NCBI GenBank assembly: GCA_018303785.1
Contig: JAGVXM010000041.1
Coordinates: 1-37,439, forward strand
From: Candidatus Pacearchaeota archaeon
GTDB taxonomy: Archaea > Nanobdellota > Nanobdellia > Pacearchaeales > GW2011-AR1
DNA length: 37,439 nt
Reading direction: 5' to 3'
In this document: positions 27,939-31,878 of the stretch, piece by piece
Position numbering within the stretch: position 1 is the first letter of the stretch
Layout of the letters: each line of letters opens with the position of its first letter
Notes under the pieces: generated by a model
Told to the model about the DNA's origin: nothing
Databases searched by the model: none
The model's input: only the letters and a program-made list of their open reading frames with translations
Position numbers and translations under genes: made by a program

Positions 27939-28637
27939 ATGAATCAAAATAATGAGATGAACGAAGGAGCTAAAGTTTCCTTACACTCGGAATCTTTTGC
28001 AACTAAGCCCGTATATGTTTTAATCGGAGTTTTGTGTGTTTTACTTATTATTAACCAATTTTTTATTATAGGCATTTCAGGTTCTTTTGTAAAGAAAATA
28101 GAAAAGGTCGATATCTCTCAAATTAAATCTACTGCACAAACTTTGGCTTCTGTGTTCCCATTATCTCAAATTAGCGATGAGCAAGATGCTATTGATATGT
28201 TAATTGCTCAAGGAACTCCGGATTATGGCGAATCTATGGGAGTTAGTTATGATGATCCTGTGGGTAGTTTGGAAAAATTAGCAGGAGCTTATCCTACGGT
28301 AAAAAAAGATGTTCAAACTAATAACCCAGAAGTATGGGACAGATATTTGAATTTAGCGACGAAACCTGTTGGAATAAGCTGTGAATACTGTTGTGGTATT
28401 GGACCTGTCGGGATTACTAATGATGGTGAATTGAGATGCGGCTGTTCTCATAATCCTGCAATTCAGACATTAACATTGTTGTTGATGAAAGATACAGATA
28501 TGAGTGATGCAGAGGTTTTACAAGAAGCGATGAAGTGGAAAACTCTTTGGTTTCCTAGAGATATGGTTGGACTTGCATTAAAAACTGCTGGCGGAGATAT
28601 TGAAACTGATTTGCCAGGGATGGTTGGAGGATGTTAA
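27939..28637 (+). CDS. Membrane-anchored Cys-rich protein ending in LPGMVGGC
   Basis: N-terminal TM (PVYVLIGVLCVLLIINQFF), CEYCCGIG...CGCSHNPAIQTLTLLL...WKTLWFPRDMV, C-terminus DLPGMVGGC*. Confidence 0.75.
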   Translation: MNQNNEMNEGAKVSLHSESFATKPVYVLIGVLCVLLIINQFFIIGISGSFVKKIEKVDISQIKSTAQTLASVFPLSQISDEQDAIDMLIAQGTPDYGESMGVSYDDPVGSLEKLAGAYPTVKKDVQTNNPEVWDRYLNLATKPVGISCEYCCGIGPVGITNDGELRCGCSHNPAIQTLTLLLMKDTDMSDAEVLQEAMKWKTLWFPRDMVGLALKTAGGDIETDLPGMVGGC

Positions 28638-28671
28638 ATGATAAAAAATAATATGAAAGGAGGATATTATC

Positions 28672-28887
28672 ATGAATAAGAATTTGGTTATTGTCGGTAT
28701 TTTAGTACTTTTAGTATTAATTGCTGCTGTTCAAACATTCCAAATGATGAGCATTAAGAATAATCTTAATGAGATAGGTTCTGGAAAAGTTGTTAAGAAG
28801 ACCTCTTCTGGATCTTCATCAACTTCTGGACAAGCGAGTGTTCCGACTAATTTGCAAAATTTACCTGGAATGGTTGGTGGTTGCTAA
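28672..28887 (+). CDS. 71-aa membrane-anchored protein with Ser-rich linker ending in LPGMVGGC
   Basis: Strong SD (aaaggagg), N-terminal TM, Ser/Gly/Thr linker, C-terminus NLPGMVGGC*. Confidence 0.75.
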   Translation: MNKNLVIVGILVLLVLIAAVQTFQMMSIKNNLNEIGSGKVVKKTSSGSSSTSGQASVPTNLQNLPGMVGGC

Positions 28888-28906: not shown

Positions 28907-30070
28907 ATGAACTTTGAAGAAGATAGATTTGTACATACATTTGAAAAAAAGTTAAGTAATAAGAAAACTTTTAATCAAGTTTTTTATGGATTGCTGATTG
29001 TTCTTGGAGTTTTATTATTGATAAATATTTATTTGGCAAGTGCAGGATACTCTGCGGTTAAACTGAAAGCTGCCGAGGTAAAAGAGGCAAACCGGCCTGC
29101 TGAGATATCTTTGATGATAATTGATTCTGGATGTAAAGATTGTTTTGATGTTGAGGCTTTAGTTACTCAAGTTAAAGATAAAAATGTTAAAATTTTAGAT
29201 GAAAAGAGAGTAGAAAAAAATTCTGAGGAAGCAAAAACGTTGATTGAGGATTATAATATTAAGAAACTCCCTACCGTTATTGTTTCTGGCGAGTTGGATA
29301 AATTTAGTATGACTGGTTTTGAAACTGTTAACGATAAACAAGTATTCATGAATATTCTTGCTCCTTATGTTGAAAGCTCGACGGGGCAGACTAAAGGTCT
29401 GGTAAAACTAGTTCATGTCACTGACACTTCTTGTGTAGAATGTATTAGTATGGAACCTGTTATAGCAAGCCTTGGTGAAGCTGGTGTAAAAATTTCGGAT
29501 ATCAAAAAAGTTGATTATACTTCTCCTGAAGGTAAAAAATACATTAGCGATTATGGTTTAAAAGAAACTCCTGCACTATTGATTTCAAATGAAGTTACCT
29601 ATTATAATGGTATGAAAGAAACTCTAGTTTCTTTGGGAAGCACAGAAGTGAAAGGATTTTTTAAATTGCATTCAACTTTACCTCCTTATCGAAAAACAGG
29701 AACGGGGCAAGTAGCGGGATTAGTTGATATGGCTTTATTGAAAGATAGTTCATGTCAATCTTGTTATGATGTTGAAGTCAACAAACAAATTATGGAGCGA
29801 TTTGGTTTATTTATTAAAGATACCAAGACTTATGATGTTAATTCTGCTGAAGGGAAACAATTAATATCCAAATATAAAATTACGAAGGTTCCTATTTTGA
29901 TATTGTCTCCTGACGCGAAAGAATACCCTACTTTATCTCGAGCTTGGCCTCAAGTTGGAACTACTGAATCAGATGGATGGTTTATCATGAGGAAACCAGA
30001 AGTTATAGGTTCGTATAAGGATTTGTCGACTAATCAGGAAATAAATCCCAATGAAAATATTGGCGAATAA
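28907..30070 (+). CDS. Membrane-anchored protein with three thioredoxin-like domains
   Basis: Three internal repeats, each CxxC plus cis-Pro-like motif: GCKDC...KLPT, SCVEC...ETPA, SCQSC...KVPI; N-terminal TM. Confidence 0.8.
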   Translation: MNFEEDRFVHTFEKKLSNKKTFNQVFYGLLIVLGVLLLINIYLASAGYSAVKLKAAEVKEANRPAEISLMIIDSGCKDCFDVEALVTQVKDKNVKILDEKRVEKNSEEAKTLIEDYNIKKLPTVIVSGELDKFSMTGFETVNDKQVFMNILAPYVESSTGQTKGLVKLVHVTDTSCVECISMEPVIASLGEAGVKISDIKKVDYTSPEGKKYISDYGLKETPALLISNEVTYYNGMKETLVSLGSTEVKGFFKLHSTLPPYRKTGTGQVAGLVDMALLKDSSCQSCYDVEVNKQIMERFGLFIKDTKTYDVNSAEGKQLISKYKITKVPILILSPDAKEYPTLSRAWPQVGTTESDGWFIMRKPEVIGSYKDLSTNQEINPNENIGE

Positions 30071-30465
30071 TGAAACCTCTTATTTTGCTTCCTATAGTGC
30101 TCCTAATTTTAGGAGGATTTACTTTCTTTTTTTTATTTGCTGATAGAGCAGTTTTCCATTCACCTGGAAATGAAACAATAAATCTGACTGGGGAAACTAA
30201 AGAATTTAATATAGAGGCATTTCAATTTGGTTTCGAACCGTCAATAATTGAGGTGAATCAAGGAGATGTTGTAAAGATCACAGCTTGGAGTCGAGATGTG
30301 GAACATGGATTAATGATTAGCGATTACGATATAAACTTGAAATTAAATAATGAACCTCAAACTATAGAATTTGTCGCAGATAAAAAGGGAACTTTTTCTT
30401 TTTATTGTCATGTGCCATGCGGAAAAGGACATGGAGCAATGCGGGGAACTTTTATTGTTAATTAA
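30070..30465 (+). CDS. Stand-alone cupredoxin with COX2-type CuA motif
   Basis: EHGLMISDYDINL His and CHVPCGKGHGAMRG (C-x3-C-x3-H-x2-M); N-terminal TM. Confidence 0.85.
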   Translation: MKPLILLPIVLLILGGFTFFFLFADRAVFHSPGNETINLTGETKEFNIEAFQFGFEPSIIEVNQGDVVKITAWSRDVEHGLMISDYDINLKLNNEPQTIEFVADKKGTFSFYCHVPCGKGHGAMRGTFIVN

Positions 30466-30467
30466 TT

Positions 30468-31424
30468 ATGAAACATTTTATATTTATTTTTAGTATTTTA
30501 TTTTTATTGGGATCTGTGATGGCTCATGATGGAAAAAATCATACCGAGATTCCTCCAGGTTTACAAAGCGTTATTGATTACAATCAAAGTCAGGCTGAAT
30601 TTTATTTTGCAAATCTCGGATTTCTTGTTGCTTTTCTCGTCGGTGTAATTGCTATATTAACTCCCTGCAGTATCGCGATATTACCTTCATTTTTTGCATA
30701 TACTTTCAAAGAAAAAAAAGAATTGGTTAAGATGACTCTAATGTTTTTTTTGGGTTTTACCCCTGTTTTTATTTTGATGGGAATCGCAGCTGCATATTTT
30801 GGAAAGACTTTGGCTATTTTTCAGGATCAAAATACTTTAGTTATGGCTTCAGGATTTGTTTTATTAGCCTTTGGAGTGATGGCTTTGTTCGGAAAAGGAT
30901 TTTCAGGTTTTACTTCATTTAGGAATAGGAAACCTGAAACCGATTCTTTAGGAGTATTTTTCCTCGGATTATTTTTTGCAGTCGGTTTCACTGCGTGCAT
31001 GGGTCCCGCTCTTTTTGGGATGTTGTTAATTTCTGGCGTACTGAAAAATTATTATTATTCTGCATTTTTGATGTTTTTTTATTCTCTCGGCGTATTTGTT
31101 ACTTTTTTCATAGTAGCTTTTTTCATGGATCGCTTTAACTTCTCAGAGAAAATAAATCGCTTAAACAAAAAAATTGGATTTCCAATTACTAATTTAATCT
31201 CTGGAACATTGTTGATCATGCTCGGATTTATTTTCATTTTATATCAAGGTACTGATGTATTAACTCACTTTGGTTTCGGTGATATTTCATATAGGATTTA
31301 TCGAATGCAAGAAAAACTAATAAGTTGGAAATATTCTTCAATTACTGGGGGAATACTTTTATTAGCTTTTATTATCTTTATGTTTTTAGTATTACGGAAA
31401 AAACATGGTAAAAATAAATTTTAA
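30468..31424 (+). CDS. CcdA/DsbD-like cytochrome c biogenesis transmembrane protein
   Basis: AILTPCSIAILPSFFAYTF and GFTACMGPALFGMLL paired-Cys TM motifs; multiple hydrophobic helices. Confidence 0.85.
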   Translation: MKHFIFIFSILFLLGSVMAHDGKNHTEIPPGLQSVIDYNQSQAEFYFANLGFLVAFLVGVIAILTPCSIAILPSFFAYTFKEKKELVKMTLMFFLGFTPVFILMGIAAAYFGKTLAIFQDQNTLVMASGFVLLAFGVMALFGKGFSGFTSFRNRKPETDSLGVFFLGLFFAVGFTACMGPALFGMLLISGVLKNYYYSAFLMFFYSLGVFVTFFIVAFFMDRFNFSEKINRLNKKIGFPITNLISGTLLIMLGFIFILYQGTDVLTHFGFGDISYRIYRMQEKLISWKYSSITGGILLLAFIIFMFLVLRKKHGKNKF

Positions 31425-31878
31425 AAAAATTTTTTGGTTCGCACTTATTTTAATAGGCGTATTTGTGATTGCGATTTACTTTATGATTCCTAAACAAGTG
31501 GATTGTAAGACTGCTTCAGTTAAGGACATGAATATCCTTCATGAAAACTTAGCGTTGCATATTCATCCTCAGTTAACCATTATTTTAGATGGAGAGAAAC
31601 AATCACTTCCTGCAAATATTGGGGTTACAGGGAATATTATGCGACCAATTCATACGCACGATTCTACGGGTGTTTTACATGTTGAAGCCCCTTGTCAACG
31701 AGAATTTCGTTTAGGAGAATTTTTTGAAGTGTGGGGAAAAACTTTTAGTACTACGTGTATTTTAGATAAATGTGATGGCAGAATAACTATGACGGTGAAT
31801 GGGGTTGAAAACACTTTATTTGAAAATTATCTTATGAATGATAATGATAATATAACCATAACTTACACGAGTAAATGA
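31405..31878 (+). CDS. Membrane-anchored His-rich extracytoplasmic protein
   Basis: N-terminal TM; LHIHPQLTIILDGEKQSLPANIGV...MRPIHTHDSTGVLHVEAPCQREFRLGEFFEVWG. Confidence 0.75.
   Translation: MVKINFKKIFWFALILIGVFVIAIYFMIPKQVDCKTASVKDMNILHENLALHIHPQLTIILDGEKQSLPANIGVTGNIMRPIHTHDSTGVLHVEAPCQREFRLGEFFEVWGKTFSTTCILDKCDGRITMTVNGVENTLFENYLMNDNDNITITYTSK

Follow-up and report, generated by a model that had tools for sequence, protein, structure and literature searches.

The P1 and P2 genes and their surroundings

The window analysed here is the whole 37,439-nucleotide stretch of DNA, contig JAGVXM010000041.1 of a Candidatus Pacearchaeota archaeon (assembly GCA_018303785.1). Two of its adjacent genes, here called P1 and P2, encode membrane proteins that end in the same eight residues, and genes for thiol and copper proteins follow them on the same strand:

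27939-28637, + strand: P1, 232 residues (N-terminal TM helix, helical domain with a Cys5-His core, MVGGC tail), from its ORF and homologues
28002-28070, + strand: P1 TM segment, about residues 22-44 (helix 23-54 in the structural model), with an NQxQI-type end and a TM profile similar to that of P2
28380-28451, + strand: candidate metal/thiol core of P1, CEYCCG...CGCSH (C148, C151, C152, C167, C169 and H171, columns invariant in both alignments)
28611-28634, + strand: P1 C-terminal tail LPGMVGGC, its invariant part MVGGC at 28620-28634
28672-28887, + strand: P2, 71 residues (TM helix, Ser-rich linker, tail identical to that of P1), from its ORF
28861-28884, + strand: P2 C-terminal tail LPGMVGGC, its invariant part MVGGC at 28870-28884
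28907-30070, + strand: triple-thioredoxin-like membrane-anchored protein with CxxC in each domain (from Pfam, alignment A3 and genome co-occurrence); associated, not obligatory
30070-30465, + strand: membrane-anchored CuA cupredoxin (CHVPCGKGHGAM) with a NosZ/CoxB-like CuA domain; associated, not obligatory
30468-31424, + strand: CcdA/DsbD-type membrane thiol transporter (from Pfam); associated, not obligatory

An earlier note on this DNA had pointed out that P1 and P2 both end in LPGMVGGC-stop and that six of the seven codons able to vary differ synonymously between them. Both ORFs bear this out: P1 ends in ttg cca ggg atg gtt gga gga tgt taa and P2 in tta cct gga atg gtt ggt ggt tgc taa, so of the seven the Val codon alone is common to the two. 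The P1 peptide begins at 28611 rather than 28612. In this 874-kb genome PGMVGGC followed by a stop codon occurs at two sites, the ends of P1 and P2 (control matches, 0). The part of the peptide that is general is shorter than the identity first noted, in that MVGGC is invariant but LPG is mostly a feature of the P1 branch that includes the window; SGG, GGG, LPQ, LPS and others precede MVGGC in other loci.

The tail in other genomes

We searched 378 genomes of the class for GMVGGC at the end of a gene with the pattern GMVGGC+(TRR), which also permits TGG after the Cys codon. There were 99 matches in 69 genomes and a single match to the reversed-pattern control, which rules out a chance origin of the tail. 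The codon after Cys was TAA, TAG or TGA in 99/99 matches and never TGG, with all three stop codons used freely, and the matches are clustered, mostly 150-600 bases apart. About 190 loci were read, comprising tail matches, P1 homologues found independently of the tail (80 loci, then 39 more) and the window. In their 1.15 million ORF residues MVGGC is C-terminal 366 times (more than the number of distinct proteins, since some loci overlap) and internal 0 times. The Val, Gly, Gly and Cys codons of the tail are all used freely across loci, and the synonymous codon match of tails is 0.43 within a locus versus 0.35 between loci, a scrambling that rules out a recent copy. From the exclusively C-terminal position of MVGGC and its freely used codons we infer that the peptide is under strong selection and that Cys is required at its very end. 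The earlier note had argued for such selection and against a recent copy, and had named enrichment at C-termini in relatives as a test; both points are borne out.

In DPANN loci the tail is carried by two to three different membrane proteins from neighbouring genes. Its carriers in the loci read are P1 itself or small partners with one N-terminal TM helix that are encoded beside P1, and none was found there outside this P1 system. The partners are of several kinds, in which the TM helix is followed by a Ser/Ala linker, by DTTGWTxNEIMNYEMHGTIPAR or by YEQMMARMHPDQ. The latter two sequences mark a second and a third kind of these proteins (L042, L046, L050, L074, L181, L193 and others), and the Met/His-rich segments of such proteins, for example NYEMHG and MMARMHP, are possible metal sites. 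Small tailed proteins of L042, L046, L048, L195 and L198 have, before the TM helix, N-terminal extensions with paired Cys residues (MDCCKTKNHDGCCKD...) that are probably cytosolic.

How strictly is the tail kept? Of 165 different P1 sequences that contain the Cys5-His core, 143 end in MVGGC, two in QVGGC, one in MVGAC and one in IVGEC; the tail is missing from 17 or 18, of which one is cut by a contig end. A tailed small protein lies close by for 156 of the 165. Each of the 17 intact P1s without a tail is accompanied by a small partner that carries one, and the partnerless P1s away from contig ends (L156, L157, L170, L218 and L219) all have the tail themselves, so no intact locus is devoid of tails. 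The tail-less proteins include a P1 subfamily with the motif CDYCCGSP (L041, L082, L083, L094, L222-L226, L228, L229), in which the tail of the small partner is kept and several P1s are fused to an N-terminal multi-TM domain. No remnant of the tail was found beyond the stop codon in the six tail-less P1s that were read. In L218 the lone P1 has a tail that has drifted to IVGEC, and that of its sister L219 is MVGGC; in L043 P1 alone has changed, to MVGAC, and its partner still ends in MVGGC.

The P1 family

Both P1 alignments have the same invariant positions: C148, E149, C151, C152, G163, C167, C169, H171, E196, K201, P206 and the terminal VGGC. No match above curated cut-offs was found in Pfam for 36 P1 homologues or in NCBIfam for the window P1; hmmsearch gave 0 sequence relatives in the PDB and Foldseek no significant fold relative there (best E 1.9, TM 0.13). 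A named motif, family or paper for the tail or P1 was found neither in family libraries nor in the PDB nor in the open-access literature, where 'MVGGC' led to no relevant paper; the earlier note likewise knew of no motif with a name that fits the tail. Relatives of P1 in the genome collection come from DPANN archaea (Pace-, Woese-, Aenigm-, Micr- and Altiarchaeota, Diapherotrites and one Nanohaloarchaeon) and from one contig labelled Patescibacteria. The latter, 4.8 kb long (L177), has P1 and a tailed partner and is probably a mis-binned archaeal contig. There were no P1 relatives in viral contigs (IMG/VR), and a viral origin of P1 was rejected on this ground.

The AlphaFold2 model of P1, made with 73 homologues, is all-helical (pLDDT 91.2, pTM 0.80). 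Its tail is modelled with a pLDDT of 88 at residues 221-230 and 67 at residues 231-232, and in the model of P2 alone, which has a helix at 3-36, the linker and tail are of low confidence (tail pLDDT 55-59). The higher value for the P1 tail is weak evidence that would fit its packing on P1. The net charge around the TM helix of the small tailed proteins, +1.0 before and +0.3 after, is a weak sign that their C-termini lie outside the cell membrane.

Thioredoxin, CuA and CcdA genes near P1

The cupredoxin at 30070-30465 has the residues of a CuA site, CxxxCxxxHxxM with an upstream His (C113, C117, H121, M124 and H79; alignment A5), and its family matches are to the NosZ/CoxB CuA domain. This stand-alone gene sits directly between the triple-thioredoxin gene and ccdA, and it is plausible that these flanking genes form a maturation neighbourhood for the CuA protein. 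Another gene of the window, at 31405-31878, encodes a membrane-anchored protein that falls into no known Pfam family and has conserved His motifs of the HTHD type; homologues of it (cluster F25) are present in many P1 loci.

The earlier note had proposed to test whether the tail co-occurs with this cassette, and it does so only in part. Of the two outcomes named there as refuting, lack of enrichment of the tail in relatives and lack of co-occurrence, neither was observed. The full-length triple-thioredoxin protein is present in 51/100 genomes with P1 versus 6/278 without it (p ~3e-28), and the CuA protein (E<=1e-28) in 40/100 versus 31/278. In the branch to which the window belongs (HNPA type), 57 of 71 loci have the triple-thioredoxin gene and 50 of 71 have ccdA, with the CuA cupredoxin sometimes present. 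The HSYAMRG branch keeps its tails, but the triple-thioredoxin gene is nearby in just 7/63 of its loci and ccdA in 10/63. The cassette is therefore associated with P1-P2 and is not an obligatory partner; the triple-thioredoxin protein as a universal reader of the tail is ruled out by the same branch. Neighbours in the HSYAMRG branch are instead a MarR-like regulator, a CPLCT membrane protein, DUF411, a CCAHH membrane protein and a Cu-type ATPase. Over all P1 loci the copper and thiol neighbours are CuA and other cupredoxins, Cu-type P-ATPases, DUF411, a Met-rich SHOCT protein, CcdA, thioredoxins and DsbA. In six genomes (G176, G180, G208, G228, G354, G368) the triple-thioredoxin protein is present and P1 was not detected.

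Parallel change from Met to Gln in both tails

In three loci, L125 (Woesearchaeota), L160 (Micrarchaeum) and L189, P1 and P2 both end in QVGGC, a sample of three cases in which one of the P1s is a fragment at a contig end. No locus read mixes Met and Gln tails. In a P1 tree built without the tail columns (a quick tree with SH-aLRT support) the three QVGGC loci are separate, which gives at least three changes, two of them forced by well-supported branches, and each Met to Gln change needs at least two base changes. The Gln codons of P1 and P2 differ in L125 and L189, which makes fresh gene conversion an unlikely source of the paired tails. A search of 371 genomes of the phylum for further such loci returned only the known pairs in G066 and G263, together with four single QVGGC matches, none of them in a P1-like locus. 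That both tails have switched with no mixed locus argues for one common site that reads both, and a common acceptor or common metal site would be the best explanation for the parallel change. No residue of the P1 core that co-varies with the switch was found in the Gln loci, so the acceptor pocket is not located.

Possible roles of the tail

Three roles had been suggested for the tail: a metal/thiol ligand, a docking site for a partner, and a C-terminal Cys modification or sorting signal. The parallel Met to Gln change favours a shared site, for docking and/or as a metal ligand. The tails are interchangeable between P1 and its partners, which points to a common acceptor, and besides the tail P1 is the only part that is always present in the loci. 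We therefore propose tentatively, as a real possibility short of a probable one, that the tail is docked in the core of P1, where it supplies Cys and Met/Gln to a copper site. MVGGC-COOH would then be a plug-in ligand tail common to the members of one membrane complex, in which P1 and its small partner or partners are anchored by their N-terminal TM helices with the C-termini outside. A tail, whether from P1 or from a partner, would dock in a pocket of the Cys5-His core, the terminal Cys serving as a strong thiolate ligand and Met, replaceable by Gln, as a weak one at a copper(I/II) site that may hold copper or pass it on. It is the gene neighbours that suggest copper as the metal. In the window's branch the triple-thioredoxin protein and CcdA would keep the thiols of tail and core reduced, and the CuA protein would be the likely recipient of the copper. 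Three observations count against this proposal: Val and both Gly residues of the tail are as invariant as Cys, as recognition would require and pure metal ligation would not; no residue of the P1 core co-varies with the Met/Gln switch; and in L043 P1 alone has changed to MVGAC. The same data might be read, with similar reserve, as a C-terminal recognition code of a new kind in DPANN archaea, in which one dedicated reader (the P1 core or an enzyme) accepts the Cys-ending pentapeptide of several membrane proteins and co-evolves with the tails, as in the Met/Gln switch.

Could the terminal Cys be a sorting or modification signal, for example for lipidation or coupling, read by a trans-acting enzyme encoded elsewhere? 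Such an enzyme could account for five fixed residues with a free C-terminus and for P1 and P2 tails that change together, and V-G-G-C resembles a lipobox, although at the wrong end of the protein. Known C-terminal anchoring signals have a TM helix after the motif. Nothing follows the tail Cys here, and the proteins are already anchored by N-terminal TM helices; P1 and P2 thus have neither the motif, TM helix and basic tail, in that order, of sortase and archaeosortase substrates nor a lipobox Cys directly behind a signal peptide at the N-terminus, VGGC being at the C-terminus. A general sorting enzyme would also be left with no other substrates, there being no tail outside the P1 system in the loci read, and the change from Met to Gln puts a polar residue at position -4. 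C-terminal lipid anchoring by archaeosortase and lipobox lipidation by AliA/AliB both occur in archaea (PMC12186497), but we consider a signal of this type in P1 and P2 unlikely.

A metal-free redox tail, whose Cys shuttles disulfides between the CxxCC/CxC core of P1 and the triple-thioredoxin/CcdA pathway or DsbA, seems to us improbable to a like extent. The strong association of the triple-thioredoxin protein with P1 genomes and the adjacent CcdA in most loci of the window's branch agree with it, as does the precedent of flexible C-terminal Cys relays such as the Cys pair of MerA, which there carries Hg (PMC4500099). The tailed HSYAMRG branch, with its few triple-thioredoxin and ccdA genes and its many copper and DUF411 genes, does not agree, and the exchange of Met and Gln is left unexplained.

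That P2 is a stripped duplicate of P1, with the tail a mere assembly contact and no Cys chemistry, appears distinctly unlikely. The TM profiles of P1 and P2 do align (pairwise hhalign, E ~1e-8, Q[IL]xx[IL] matched), but likeness between TM segments can easily stem from composition, a contact with no reactivity would be unlikely to retain the terminal Cys in every tail found, QVGGC, MVGAC and IVGEC included, and descent alone does not explain parallel Met to Gln changes in three lineages. A ribosomal termination-arrest peptide that controls downstream genes and has no role in the mature protein would fit a tail exactly beside the stop codon on consecutive genes of one operon, but it is very improbable given that first, second and third genes and lone P1s in varied gene orders all carry the tail and that any of the three stop codons may follow it.

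Selection on MVGGC and its concerted change in both proteins point to a shared docking or metal-binding tail without an existing name that probably serves extracellular copper or thiol chemistry, and its molecular role may be a new variant of copper handling. A five-residue motif exactly at the C-terminus, fixed over several DPANN lineages on two to three proteins and with parallel Met/Gln switches, gives clean genetic evidence of a membrane system yet to be characterised, and P1 is a family with no Pfam, NCBIfam or fold match in archaea whose gene functions are mostly unknown. The puzzling stand-alone nosZ-like CuA protein of DPANN gains a set of neighbouring genes, both here and in roughly one quarter of the P1 branch to which the window belongs. 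A ligand role for the tail also predicts short peptides whose copper binding is directly testable.

Comparison with known systems

We know of no counterpart to a shared, co-evolving C-terminal code on different proteins. The window cupredoxin is of the same kind as the DPANN 'nosZ-like' CuA protein described from oxygen-deficient zones (PMC10936187), with its CxxxCxxxHxxM motif, its NosZ CuA matches and the absence of an oxidase around it. P1, P2 and the tail are separate from that protein, and a search of the paper's text for MVGGC gave no match. The gene neighbourhoods of P1 are shared with copper-handling loci that contain DUF411, CcdA and Cu-ATPases, but neither P1 nor P2 matches any of the families found in such loci. 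The archaeosortase and lipobox signals of Haloferax (PMC12186497) are likewise short C-terminal or Cys-containing signals on archaeal surface proteins; in P1 and P2, unlike these, Cys is last, no TM helix follows the motif and the carriers are limited to one operon family.

Two metalloproteins come closer to the chemistry proposed here. Mercuric reductase MerA has flexible Cys residues at its C-terminus, which pass a soft metal on to a different site across subunits (PMC4500099), a mobile relay that is a precedent for the proposed function of the P1 and P2 tails. MerA is, however, a cytosolic flavoenzyme with a Cys pair, whereas P1 and P2 are membrane-anchored and have just one Cys at the terminus, and neither was found to be related to MerA in sequence. 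The weak axial ligand of blue copper sites is Met in plastocyanin and azurin and Gln in stellacyanin (PMC11881046); P1 and P2 are helical or disordered and, unlike blue copper proteins, are not cupredoxins, but their tails resemble these sites in the Met/Gln exchange and the essential Cys.
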